From Marivirga salinae (lineage in GTDB: Bacteria; Bacteroidota; Bacteroidia; Cytophagales; Cyclobacteriaceae), in NCBI RefSeq assembly GCF_030503855.1, contig NZ_CP129971.1, positions 3,596,001-3,660,000 of the forward strand: 64,000 nucleotides of DNA. Direction: 5' to 3'. The position numbers and the translations under genes were made by a program. A model generated the notes under the pieces. The model was not told the DNA's origin and did not search any database. It saw only the letters and a program-made list of their open reading frames with translations. Positions within the stretch are counted from its first letter, which is position 1; each line of letters opens with the position of its first letter. Shown piece after piece: positions 6,697 through 11,062 of the stretch.

Positions 6697-6825
6697 TACC
6701 TCTATTCCTTTCTTTATTTTCATAACCGTCCGAATAATTATATGTATATATTTATAATATAATTAATTATCCCATGATTTATTTAATCGGTTAAAATACA
6801 ATATTACAGATAGTTATACTTTTAC

Positions 6826-6855
6826 TTGTATTGTAATTTTGAGAATCTACCTTTG
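6826..6855 (+). promoter_or_regulatory. Bacteroidota-type promoter for the small peptide operon
   Basis: TTG at 6826-6828 and TACCTTTG at 6848-6855 are 19 bp apart. This matches the TTG-N19-TAnnTTTG layout of primary-sigma promoters in Bacteroidota. The predicted transcript starts near 6862, about 33 nt before the ATG at 6895. Confidence 0.65.
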
Positions 6856-6894
6856 CGCTCTGAAAATTTAAAATAACCCCAAAAAGTACAAGAA

Positions 6895-7020
6895 ATGAAC
6901 ACTACTACTACAAAAAACAATTCTAAAGCAAACACAGAAAAAGAACAATTTTTGAACAAAATCTTAACTAAAAAGAAATCACTTTCTCCTATTTGTTCAG
7001 CTATTTGTTCAATTAATTGA
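6895..7020 (+). CDS. 41-residue Cys-containing peptide, candidate modified-peptide precursor
   Basis: This short gene reads as a hydrophilic, Lys/Thr/Asn-rich N-terminus of ~28 residues followed by the compact C-terminus SLSPICSAICSIN with two Cys and five Ser. That leader/core split is typical of ribosomally made, post-translationally modified peptides. It has its own promoter, is followed after 21 bp by a GRDP-like gene, and shares a terminator with it. No lanthipeptide cyclase, radical SAM enzyme or exporter is adjacent, so the modification is a guess. The competing antisense frame (6822-7025) lacks any such context. I do not recognise the peptide family. Confidence 0.55.
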   Translation: MNTTTTKNNSKANTEKEQFLNKILTKKKSLSPICSAICSIN

Positions 7021-7041
7021 TCCATTTTACTTTAGGTAAAA

Positions 7042-7548
7042 ATGATTCAAGAAATTACAAAAACAAATAAAACACTATTGTCTGCTTTAGATTGTGATGA
7101 AGACAATATTATCATTGAAGGTTTTATGGATAGATATACCGTAAACCGAGAAGAAGCAACTGAAATTTTACAAGAAACCAAAAAATGGTTGTGGTTAGCT
7201 TCAGAAAACATCAAAGAGAAAAAAGGGTTTCGACTTTTTATAGACAATTCTCTATTGATCATTGATGAGATGTGGCATAATTTTATATTGCATACAAGGA
7301 TTTACCAAAAATTCTGCAATGAAAAACTGAACTTATTCGTACACCATGAACCTACACCAGCTTCTGAGAAAATAATAGGTTTTGATAGCGAGGTCGAAAA
7401 ACATAAGTTTCAGAATGAACAGGAAGAAAAATTAAGTCAGCAATTATCCTATATTTATGACAAATTGGGAGCTGAAACTGTAAGTAAATGGTACGAGGAA
7501 TTTCCTGAGAAATTTAATGAAGAGAAAATTCATGATTTAAAAAGATAA
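7042..7548 (+). CDS. GRDP-like (glycine-rich-domain-protein N-terminal type) protein
   Basis: This is a 168-residue cytosolic protein with no signal or membrane segment. The central motif LIIDEMWHNFILHTRIYQKFC (residues 72-92) followed by a second histidine pair in FVHHEPTP (101-102) matches the conserved Asp-x-x-Trp-His ... Tyr-x-x-Phe-Cys ... His-His pattern of the GRDP-like/DUF1399 family. These residues could form a metal or catalytic site, but the biochemical role of the family is not established. It starts 21 bp after the 41-residue peptide gene and is followed by a strong terminator, so the two form one unit. It may act on or regulate the peptide. Confidence 0.7.
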   Translation: MIQEITKTNKTLLSALDCDEDNIIIEGFMDRYTVNREEATEILQETKKWLWLASENIKEKKGFRLFIDNSLLIIDEMWHNFILHTRIYQKFCNEKLNLFVHHEPTPASEKIIGFDSEVEKHKFQNEQEEKLSQQLSYIYDKLGAETVSKWYEEFPEKFNEEKIHDLKR

Positions 7549-7570
7549 CTTATCCTTTTATAACTTATCT

Positions 7571-7614
7571 AAAAACGGTAGCAGTAATATCATTTACTTC
7601 TACCGTTTTTTTTT
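7571..7614 (+). terminator. Intrinsic terminator of the peptide/GRDP-like operon
   Basis: AAAAACGGTAG and CTACCGTTTTT form a perfect stem followed by a run of T. It lies 23 bp after the GRDP-like stop codon. Confidence 0.85.
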
Positions 7615-7726: not shown

Positions 7727-10700
7727 TTGCAAAAAAAATATCTACATAATGGTAAATCCTTCATAAACAGAAAGACGGCTGTCTTCCTATCAATTGTATT
7801 TTTATTGTTTTTAAATTCATCAATAGGTAAAAGTCAATCGTATTTCACCCCCCTGATGCAACATTATTCGGCTAAAGATTATAAAGCAGGGATATCAAAT
7901 TGGGATATGGCTTCATCCAATGATGGTCTATTATACTTCTCCAATTTAAATGGGATACTACAATTTGATGGAAAGGAATGGCAATTTATTAAGATAAAAG
8001 GTGGAAAGATTTCGCGTGCCATACATAAAGATTATCATGGAAGAATATTTGTAGGAAGTACTGATGAATTTGGATATTTGAATATTGACAGCACAGGAAC
8101 CACATATTTTCAATCGTTAAGTGACCAACTAAATCTTGACAGAATTGGATCTGTTTTTCAAATTTTAAGTATTAAAAATGATATATATTTCATCACCTTA
8201 AAATACCTTATCCGATTTAACCAAGATGGATTTAAGCATTGGAAATTAAACAGAGGATCTGGAGGATTTATATATCAAAATAATTTATACATCAAGGATG
8301 TAAATCAAGTTTTATTAAAGCTTAAAAATGATAGCTTAATCAATATAAACGGAAGCAATAAAACCCCATCATTAATAAGAAGTAATATTGTTAATGGATT
8401 TGATGCAGATGAAAAATACATTATTGGGAAAAGCCAAAACAAAGGCTATATTTTCAGAAACGATTCAATAATAGAAACTCAACAGCAGTATCCATTTGGA
8501 AATTCATTTCTTTCTCTAAGTAAAAGTAATTCAGTTAAAAATTCCATTTGGGCTTCCACATTAAATAAAGGCATTTTCAATTTTAATATAGGAGATACCG
8601 TCTTTAATAAAATCAATATTGAAAAAGGCTTACCTACCAATATTACCTTCAATATCTACTCTGATAATCATAATGGGGTTTGGGCATTGCATCAAGAAGG
8701 AATCACGAGAATTCAAGCATCAAAAAATTTAATGCTTTGGGGTAAAGATTTAGGTTTTGACGCTATAATTACGAAAATACTAAATTGTAATAATCAAATT
8801 TTCCTACCCTCATTTGATGGATTGTTCACTTTAAATAAAGATAAAAAAATACACCTAACTTATAATCCAAAAGACAGGCTTTTTAATGTTTTTAACTATA
8901 AAGATATTATAATCATCACAGGAGATAAAGGACTTTATAAGTATAAAAATTCTGAAAATATTAAGACAATCCCTATTGCTGGAGGAACTAATGAATTTCT
9001 CTCTAATAATAAGTTATTTATCACCACAGCCAGAAATGGCATAATTCAATATTCACCTGATTCTGATCAAACTCAAGAATATATATCAGAAATCAGTGGT
9101 TTTTGTAACAGTATTTTAAGTTTAGATTCCAAACATTGGCTCAGCTATAAATCGGAGGGTATTTATTTAATTGATGAAAATAATGGTAATCCTAAATGGA
9201 AGTTCTTTAACCAAAATCATGGTTTGCCTGATGTTAATGCCATCAATATTTTAAAGTCTGTTGAAGGTGAAATCCTTTTCACCACCTCAAAAGGGTTTTA
9301 TACCCTAAATAAAAACCCCAAAGCTGATTCCAGCAATCTATTTATTCCCCATTCAAAAATCACGGATGAAAAGCTGAATATCAACAATATAGACCAGGAT
9401 CAAAACGGTAATTATTGGTTGACCATAACCGAAGAATCTCAGAGGCAATTGGTTATAAAATTTGAAAGAAAGGATGATGGTAGTTACGAAAAAATAGAGC
9501 GGTCTCTAAAAGCTATCCCAAATCAAAATTTCACTAGCATTTATGTGGATCAATTAGAAGATAGTATAGTTTGGATAGCGGGAAATGAAGGTTTATACCG
9601 ATTTGATGAGAAAGAGAATGTAGACTTAGATATCCCATTCAAGACCTTTATAAAGAAAGTGAGCCTAAATGACTCCATATTATCACAAGGATTATATAAA
9701 GAATTTAGGTCTTCGGATAGCATTCCAACCTTAATAATTGATCAACCTAATGCATCTGTTCCTAAAATTAAATTTTCGGATAATAATATAAAATTTGAAT
9801 TTAGTGCGCTTTTTTATGAGCAGCCGGAAAGAAATCAATATTCCATCTACCTTCAAGGTTTTGATAAGGAATGGTCAGCTTGGTCAAGTATGAACCATAA
9901 GGAATACACCAACTTGCCAGCAGGTAAGTATCAATTTAAAGTGAAATCAAAAAATTTATACGATACAGAAGGGAAAACAGCTATTTACAAATTTGTAATT
10001 TTACCTCCTTGGTATCAGACTACTTGGGCTTACTTTTTCTTTAGCATCATAATCGTCACTATTATCTGGCTTTTGATGTTAGCCTATACTTATAGAGTTC
10101 GACAACAAAGAAAACGCCTTAAACTGATAGTGGCTGACCGTACCTACGAAGTAATGCAGCAGAAAAGGGTTATTGAAAAGCAATTGCTTAAAATGTCAAA
10201 TCTGAATGAGGAAATTAGCCAACAGCGAGATGATATTTTAGAAAAAAATCAAGAGCTAGAAAGCTCACAAGAGGAGGTTTTATCTATCAATAACAAACTC
10301 CAAGAACTTAATCAGGCTTTAGAAGCAAGGGTGGAAAAAAGAACGGCAAAGATTAAAGATACCATTCAAAAACTACAGCAAACCAATAAAGATTTAGATA
10401 CATTCACTTATAAAACATCGCATGATTTAAAAGGCCCTATCAGTAGAATTAAAGGAATTTTAGCTTTAGCTCGCTTTGAAAATCCGGAAGCCAAAACTGA
10501 TAAGTATTTGGACTTGATTGAAAAAACGACCAAAGAGATGGATATCCTATTGAGTAAACTAACTCAAGTACATAATATCTATAACTCCAAAGTTGAATAT
10601 AATGCCATTGATATTCCAACTATCTTCAAAGAGGTAATGGAAAAGATCAGTCCGTTAGTAGAGCAATCTAAATTCAAATTTCAATTTGATTTGAAGAATG

Positions 10701-11062
10701 AAAATGAATTGAAAACGGATGAAAAAATGCTAGAGTTGATTTTACTCAACCTGCTAGAAAATGCGCTGATCTATGCCGATGATAAAAAACCACAACAAGA
10801 GATAAAGCTTAGTACCCTTAAAAAAGAAAACATCTTTTCCCTCTCTATTGAAGATAATGGTGTGGGGATTCCTGAAAAACAGCTCCCTAGAATATTTGAA
10901 ATGTTCTTCAGAGGTTCGGAAAAATCAATCGGAAACGGACTTGGATTGTATTTGGTTAAGGTTGCCGTTGAGAAGATTGGGGGTACGCTTAAAGTCGAAA
11001 CTAAAGAATTTGAATTTACCAGGTTTACTATTGAGTTTCCTTTGAAGGGGTGGAAAGTTTGA
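7727..11062 (+). CDS. Beta-propeller / Y_Y_Y sensor histidine kinase
   Basis: This is a 1111-residue membrane sensor. The order is a signal peptide (to about 37), a periplasmic Reg_prop beta-propeller (about 45-670), a Y_Y_Y domain (about 689-745), one membrane helix (about 764-790), a long coiled coil (about 800-890), HisKA with phospho-acceptor His899 in TSHDLKGPISRI, and HATPase_c with N-box LLNLLENALIYAD (about 1005-1018), G1 DNGVGIP (about 1042) and G2 GNGLGLYLV (about 1069). Unlike the hybrid two-component systems that control polysaccharide utilisation, it has no receiver or AraC domain, and no regulator gene is adjacent. The start is a TTG at 7727, because no ATG lies in frame before the propeller. 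Confidence 0.9.
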   Translation: MQKKYLHNGKSFINRKTAVFLSIVFLLFLNSSIGKSQSYFTPLMQHYSAKDYKAGISNWDMASSNDGLLYFSNLNGILQFDGKEWQFIKIKGGKISRAIHKDYHGRIFVGSTDEFGYLNIDSTGTTYFQSLSDQLNLDRIGSVFQILSIKNDIYFITLKYLIRFNQDGFKHWKLNRGSGGFIYQNNLYIKDVNQVLLKLKNDSLININGSNKTPSLIRSNIVNGFDADEKYIIGKSQNKGYIFRNDSIIETQQQYPFGNSFLSLSKSNSVKNSIWASTLNKGIFNFNIGDTVFNKINIEKGLPTNITFNIYSDNHNGVWALHQEGITRIQASKNLMLWGKDLGFDAIITKILNCNNQIFLPSFDGLFTLNKDKKIHLTYNPKDRLFNVFNYKDIIIITGDKGLYKYKNSENIKTIPIAGGTNEFLSNNKLFITTARNGIIQYSPDSDQTQEYISEISGFCNSILSLDSKHWLSYKSEGIYLIDENNGNPKWKFFNQNHGLPDVNAINILKSVEGEILFTTSKGFYTLNKNPKADSSNLFIPHSKITDEKLNINNIDQDQNGNYWLTITEESQRQLVIKFERKDDGSYEKIERSLKAIPNQNFTSIYVDQLEDSIVWIAGNEGLYRFDEKENVDLDIPFKTFIKKVSLNDSILSQGLYKEFRSSDSIPTLIIDQPNASVPKIKFSDNNIKFEFSALFYEQPERNQYSIYLQGFDKEWSAWSSMNHKEYTNLPAGKYQFKVKSKNLYDTEGKTAIYKFVILPPWYQTTWAYFFFSIIIVTIIWLLMLAYTYRVRQQRKRLKLIVADRTYEVMQQKRVIEKQLLKMSNLNEEISQQRDDILEKNQELESSQEEVLSINNKLQELNQALEARVEKRTAKIKDTIQKLQQTNKDLDTFTYKTSHDLKGPISRIKGILALARFENPEAKTDKYLDLIEKTTKEMDILLSKLTQVHNIYNSKVEYNAIDIPTIFKEVMEKISPLVEQSKFKFQFDLKNENELKTDEKMLELILLNLLENALIYADDKKPQQEIKLSTLKKENIFSLSIEDNGVGIPEKQLPRIFEMFFRGSEKSIGNGLGLYLVKVAVEKIGGTLKVETKEFEFTRFTIEFPLKGWKV

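Follow-up and report, generated by a model that had tools for sequence, protein, structure and literature searches.

A short cysteine peptide and its GRDP-like partner protein recur together in three bacterial phyla

Does a 41-codon open reading frame in the genome of Marivirga salinae encode a functional peptide, and what might the protein encoded directly behind it do with such a peptide? The frame lies in a stretch of 64,000 nucleotides (the window; contig NZ_CP129971.1, positions 3,596,001 to 3,660,000, forward strand), in which an earlier note, made from the DNA letters alone, had proposed a closed unit of two genes between a consensus promoter and a strong terminator. Both of the open reading frames it named are present: a putative precursor peptide gene at 6895..7020 (+; 41 aa, MNTTTTKNNSKANTEKEQFLNKILTKKKSLSPICSAICSIN), and a gene at 7042..7548 (+) for a GRDP-like protein of 168 aa that is predicted to be all helical and carries the precomputed Pfam assignment PF27765. 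A search with this protein identified a single gene in the 4.49-Mb genome of the window. The promoter (6825..6855, +) consists of CTTG (6825-6828), 19 nt, and TAccTTTG (6848-6855), and the proposal of a consensus promoter is supported by nine Marivirga upstream regions in which CTTG, TA and TTTG are invariant and the spacer is variable; these elements match what we take to be the Bacteroidota promoter consensus. A generic sigma-70 scan was uninformative here, with 19 sites found against 14.2 expected. Nine bp 5' of the promoter lies a 43-bp element (6773..6815, +) with long invariant runs in the nine aligned Marivirga loci, a candidate activator site whose activator may be connected with the sensor kinase described below. 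The terminator was also correctly recognised, as a hairpin of -18.2 kcal/mol (z -9.4) followed by T's lies at 7571..7610 (+); a simple terminator scan found none, perhaps because it allows loops of no more than 8. The unit cannot be called closed, however, because the next gene, for a sensor kinase (7727..11062, +; Y_Y_Y, HisKA and HATPase domains, with the HisKA match weak and below cut-off), is a conserved neighbour found 3' of the partner homolog in 17 loci.

On comparative grounds the 41-aa ORF behaves as a real gene. It occurs at the same place in ten Marivirga loci, and the CxxxC pair of its core (Cys34 and Cys38; 6994..7008, +) is kept in 10/10. Across nine of these loci, with the diverged L010 left out, dN/dS of the peptide is ~0.42, a value that carries no significance test; for the core it is 0.38, with the core evolving faster at both silent and replacement sites. 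The earlier description of a Cys/Ser core thus stands for its cysteines. The window peptide itself has a Ser N-terminal of Cys in its core, but the core in locus L003 has no Ser or Thr ahead of the Cys pair; Ser is therefore not conserved, and the core is better termed a Cys core. Such a Ser/Thr residue is expected of a lanthipeptide, and its absence from the L003 core bears on whether the peptide belongs to a known RiPP class, as a lanthipeptide or an MNIO-modified peptide. Ser/Thr and Cys do occur together in some cores, and Cys-rich precursors are typical MNIO substrates according to the portion of the literature consulted (PMC12452194). However, besides the L003 core, no MNIO gene is present in 8/8 Marivirga genomes or in 19/23 of all genomes tested, and no LanB/M/K-like ORF was noticed by eye beside the unit, so that membership of these known classes is highly improbable. 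With an MNIO gene in 0/8 Marivirga genomes and 4/23 genomes overall, MNIO enzymes are not needed, and the lanthipeptide and MNIO readings were set aside. A database search with 28 peptides returned 45 relatives at E <=10, 11 of them at <=1e-3, with no name beyond hypothetical or uncharacterized protein among the matches listed.

If the peptide is functional, its pairing with the larger protein should be visible in other genomes. The 168-aa protein is one of 151 similar proteins, and 199 loci yielded 163 distinct domain genes, of which 59 are close (profile score >=170; Bacteroidota, Gammaproteobacteria and Cyanobacteria), 10 middle (100-170) and 94 remote. A loose test for an upstream ORF was too permissive, being positive in 28/89 remote genes too, and was therefore replaced by a strict test with controls, which required an ATG start, 25-90 aa, >=2 Cys in the last 25 residues, a stop <=330 nt upstream and the same strand. 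This strict test was positive for 53/57 testable close genes (L050 and L184, at contig ends, lie outside the 57) against a background of 22/118 among control genes taken from those loci (p 3.5e-22 by Fisher's test, with related loci counted as independent), and for 1/9 middle and 23/88 remote genes. The proposal that a short Cys peptide is paired with a GRDP-like protein is therefore borne out. By hand inspection, 56/57 close genes have their own short Cys ORF alongside, 53 of them upstream and three downstream, a count composed of the strict positives plus L038 and the peptides that lie downstream in L031, L037 and L039, minus a chance upstream ORF in L039. The single testable close gene without its own peptide is a second copy in L044, right behind a copy with three peptides. 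The parts of the open-access literature covered by our searches hold no description joining GRDP-like proteins with short peptides, consistent with the earlier claim that the pairing is undescribed.

A short upstream ORF could instead regulate translation or transcription of the next gene without giving a functional peptide, and its position directly upstream in most loci would suit this role, as would the hairpin that follows it: 34/43 spacers of >=25 nt after the peptide ORF fold with z < -2 (nine further spacers are shorter). Such a role is nevertheless very unlikely, given peptide genes 3' of the partner (L031, L037, L039, L186, L188), multiple peptide copies, the conservation of leader and Cys from phylum to phylum, and double-glycine leaders found with C39 exporters. 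The hairpins also fit a peptide product made in excess over the partner; no strong hairpin was found in the Marivirga spacers, which are 14-29 nt long.

A leader block is common to most of the peptides. After four leaderless ORFs (L028, L030, L027, L014) and the upstream ORF of L039 were dropped by eye, 62 distinct peptides aligned gap-free in one leader block with the consensus KxxLIxxLL, which in the window peptide is EKEQFLNKILTK (residues 15-26; 6937..6972, +). Their cores differ, with examples including FCFELCFEFC, HCSNCGHC and ICSAICS. A matrix built from 36 Bacteroidota peptides scored 22/26 gammaproteobacterial and cyanobacterial peptides above the 95% shuffle level and 11/26 above the 99% level, which 0/26 chance ORFs exceeded; the three cyanobacterial peptides (L030, L047, L150) and L186 failed at the 95% level. 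The strict test combined with the leader score selected 49/57 close genes and 2/118 controls, one of the latter being L037's own downstream peptide, although this comparison is partly circular, since 36 of the peptides scored had gone into the matrix. The conserved leader and variable core of a RiPP precursor are thus found here, to a moderate degree for members outside the Bacteroidota.

What kind of protein is the partner? PF27765, a family already known by its Pfam accession, is given for the window protein and for the others among the 120 matches listed (accession precomputed). The earlier label of GRDP-like holds at the level of the superfamily but not as a direct match to PF07173, which has no direct Pfam match in the window protein and is not among the best 25 of 36 families listed for 56 homologs. 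In its favour, the homologs P0024 and P0085 are named 'glycine-rich domain-containing protein', the best structural match in BFVD, a viral library, is a 'Glycine-rich domain-containing protein-like' entry (prob 1.00, E 7.3e-3, TMq 0.48), and the remote relative L157 matches both PF07173 and the profile used here. By the BFVD match and the double match of L157, fold and motif are shared with proteins named GRDP-like. The model of the 168-aa protein, a confident one (pLDDT 89.6, pTM 0.86), is all helical and gave no match to a solved fold in a PDB structure search. Ten residues are invariant in 56 homologs: D75, M77, W78, H79, F81, Y88, H102, P104 and two others. The set of Asp-Trp-His and His-His residues noticed earlier is thus indeed invariant-looking, and is corrected to two motifs, D75-E-M-W-H79 (7264..7278, +), in which D75, M77, W78 and H79 are invariant, and H101-H102-x-P104 (7342..7353, +), in which H102 and P104 are invariant and H101 is present in >=90% of the 56. 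Close genes read DEMWH, once DQMWH.

The fate of this motif outside the close family is instructive in both directions. L097-L100, from the family of a Chryseobacterium, have EEMWN or EEMWR in place of DEMWH, and no leader-bearing Cys ORF was found on either side in the available locus DNA (4/4). As judged from these sequences, 4/4 copies that have lost the Asp and His have lost the peptide too. Counting against this rule, L187, L189 and L190 keep DEMWH and have no leader-bearing peptide within ~1.4 kb on each side; L189 is the sole strict-test positive among the middle genes, and its ORF has no leader. In L186 and L188 the peptide is downstream and an S9-like gene lies between it and the partner. 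These two, the seven just named and L151, at a contig end, make up the 10 middle-scoring genes (100-170), which are outside the 56/57 count. Homologs lacking a conserved short ORF, which the earlier note had proposed to look for as counter-evidence, therefore do exist, as seven diverged proteins, but the close family has the peptide.

In the remote relatives a Cys-rich segment is often part of the same chain. At least three Cys in the last 45 residues are present in 49/94 remote proteins, against 0/59 close proteins and 19/267 control ORFs, and 30 of the 49 end in GGD. D-x-x-W-H is kept in all 49 and in 42 of the remaining 45, and a profile comparison of nine remote proteins with the close family gave 99.2% probability. 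The 45/94 remote genes without such a tail count against a same-chain parallel. Arabidopsis GRDP2, a protein of 787 aa described as of unknown function, is laid out in this way too, having a C-terminal domain with interspersed Cys and the consensus [CG]GGGCGG[GC], and two Arabidopsis DUF1399 proteins have no Gly-rich region, according to the sections available of one account (PMC4299439). The bacterial pair resembles such GRDP-like/DUF1399 (PF07173) proteins in the D-x-x-W-H ... H-H-x-P of its remote bacterial relatives and, going by the same sections, in the Cys-bearing Gly-rich segment that accompanies the domain of GRDP2, but differs in that its Cys segment is encoded as a separate peptide gene with a leader. 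The Cys tails of the remote proteins and the layout of GRDP2 together suggest that this domain is often accompanied by a Cys-rich segment, which is either attached to it or encoded as a peptide of its own. One remote relative (L171:1258-2793) joins a GRDP-like region to a TIGR04222 domain and carries a Cys tail as well. The TIGR04222 'near_uncomplex' proteins share a Cys/Ser/Gly C-terminal tail, and L171 combines all three features; they differ in being membrane proteins with no separate peptide, and subsets of them have been proposed as MNIO substrates in the portion of the literature consulted (PMC12452194).

The genes around the pair recur in four arrangements. In type B, that of the window, the peptide and partner are followed by the sensor kinase (17 loci, 24-100% identity across the matched stretch; an 18th match, in L037, covers the kinase part only). 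In type A, the peptide (HCSNCGHC and similar) and partner are accompanied by a ~300-aa MSIFPKR protein (11 loci) and a TonB receptor, its domain confirmed in L042 and recognised by eye elsewhere; methanobactin uptake follows a similar TonB receptor logic. The MSIFPKR protein (L042:3457-4353 and the other loci of the 11) belongs to no family and has a beta-rich model without informative matches. In type C the third gene encodes an S9-type hydrolase; there are 8 such loci, of which two come from the Shewanella family, and the hydrolase of L049 has a Pfam match. In type D, in gammaproteobacteria, double-glycine peptides and the partner are found with HlyD and a C39 ABC exporter. HlyD matches were obtained in 13 loci (one weak) and C39-ABC matches in 13, four of these just 42-45 aa at the locus end, and the exporter domains were confirmed in L034. 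Across the four arrangements the partner and the Cys peptide are the constant part. C39 export is likely in type D, whose members share GG leaders, HlyD and C39 ABC with known double-glycine peptides and differ from them in the added GRDP-like partner. The window peptide also differs from these in having no GG, and no exporter adjoins the Marivirga unit; the single C39 match in the genome of the window is ~338 kb away, and in two Marivirga genomes carrying the unit no C39 match was obtained.

The double-glycine leaders and C39 exporter would also suit a bacteriocin with its cognate immunity protein, in which case the peptide would be a toxin against other bacteria and the helical protein the producer's protection. 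Small helical bundles are known among class II immunity proteins, and in Shewanella there are tandem partner paralogs, each with its own peptides. However, immunity proteins normally vary with their toxin, and here the partner is conserved while the cores vary, one partner may follow two peptides (a clearly different pair in L036), and the Zur-like box, TonB receptor and same-chain Cys tail are unsuited to immunity. We regard this explanation as rather unlikely. Still less credible is a toxin-antitoxin pair of peptide toxin and helical antitoxin: the two small adjacent genes would suit it, but exporters, receptors and kinases recur as neighbours, and the two different peptides before one partner in L036 also argue against it. 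A common leader and a conserved partner, set against cores that vary, speak more for a leader-guided enzyme or loader than for an immunity protein. Of the roles of maturase, immunity or binding partner raised earlier, the evidence favours, short of proof, a maturase or other handling of Cys.

A possible link of the Cys core to metal is suggested by type A. The palindrome TGCAAYANYRTTGCA is present in 8/8 type A genomes searched, each strand giving 1-6 matches where the reversed control gave 0-1. In 6/8 it is ~220-320 bases 5' of the partner gene; in the other two it precedes the TonB receptor of that locus. It also occurs beside a CobW-type GTPase, at MerC with a Fur-family regulator, and at Fur-family regulators with a TonB receptor or with cation-transporter-like ORFs, and at some sites (L211, L212, L213, L216) the genes have no apparent connection with metals. 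COG0523 GTPases and TonB receptors are counted among Zur regulon genes in the excerpts consulted (PMC6103462). The palindrome may therefore be the Zur box of type A bacteria, and the type A peptide probably serves zinc acquisition. Two forms of the palindrome were searched for and found in no paper within the open-access text covered. The Zur-like box was not found in the window, so a metal role in Marivirga would be an extrapolation from type A; given the TonB receptor and Zur-like box of that type, metal binding would be the likeliest property common to the cores. Ribosomal Cys peptides with a dedicated partner are a known kind, as in methanobactins and bufferins, MNIO RiPPs with a metal link according to the portion of the literature consulted (PMC12452194), whereas the type of partner is new: it is from another family, no MNIO gene is found in those 19/23 genomes, and the box appears to be of a zinc type instead of copper.

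Taken with the pairing and the leader, these features lead us to favour, at slightly better than even odds, a unit of precursor peptide and dedicated partner, in which leader-guided modification or metal loading of the Cys core is followed by release. The ribosomal precursor peptide would be recognised through its common leader helix, KxxLIxxLL, by the GRDP-like partner (PF27765), which would act on the variable Cys core, most likely by thiol modification or metal loading, through the D-x-x-W-H / H-H-x-P site. The product would leave by the C39-peptidase exporter in gammaproteobacteria and by other routes elsewhere. In Marivirga the peptide would be expressed from its own promoter, exported, and probably tied to the neighbouring sensor kinase, to which it may signal. 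That six type A proteins have Ser or Thr in place of C92 counts against this reading, as does the missing match to a solved fold. The partner could alternatively be a chaperone, escort or metal-delivery protein that binds leader and core, keeps the thiols reduced or metallated and passes the peptide on without covalent change. This is consistent with a predicted helical protein without a solved-fold match, with the zinc-type regulation in type A, with the absence of MNIO genes from 19/23 genomes, and with there being no known RiPP enzyme noticed by eye among the neighbour ORFs of 31 loci, but D-x-M-W-H and H-H-x-P are fixed in 56 homologs from three phyla, which would seem to exceed the needs of simple binding. 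We give this alternative roughly a one-in-five standing, well below the leader-guided modification or loading preferred here.

Peptide and partner resemble a peptide system of an undescribed kind, exported and probably either modified or metal-binding. In peptide natural products it is the partner enzyme that defines the class, so that a small partner lacking a solved-fold match and conserved with Cys peptides in three phyla would make this a new class, one that escapes ordinary gene finding. Its type with the Zur-like box suggests ribosomal zinc-binding peptides. A broader and more speculative proposal, to which we attach a distinctly lower probability, is that GRDP-like (DUF1399) is an unrecognised enzyme module acting on a separate peptide in bacteria of the PF27765 clade and, in GRDP proteins of plants and remote bacteria, on the C-terminal Cys/Gly tail of its own chain; the peptides of bacteria would then form a new ribosomal class that includes zinc metallophores controlled by Zur, and the Marivirga peptide would feed the propeller sensor kinase. 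The same-chain tail in remote relatives provides a hypothesis for the plant GRDP/DUF1399 proteins that is testable in bacteria.

Several further observations bear on the distribution and control of these loci. In a phylum-wide sample of 296 genomes, besides the window's own genome, only remote relatives were found (11 genomes). Two genes 5' of the GRDP-like gene of L152, a remote relative from the cyanobacteria, there is an ORF that ends in CQSYCWTCQSYCLRCRSYCW, so that the pairing may extend further. The Zur-like palindrome forms a small set of sites (L200-L219) in Cytophagales, Mucilaginibacter and Chryseobacterium genomes. Finally, the DUF805b RNA (RF02914), which is a cis element only and in this differs from the pair, had no match in the Marivirga locus L001, and DUF805b-like sequence in L032, L041 and L042 scored below the gathering level. 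At gathering score it was found in 9/14 scanned loci, in which one match is placed just 5' of the peptide ORF, and it precedes type A and some type C peptide ORFs (L012:1235-1269, L046:809-843, L049:2695-2728, L035:2651-2682 and others).
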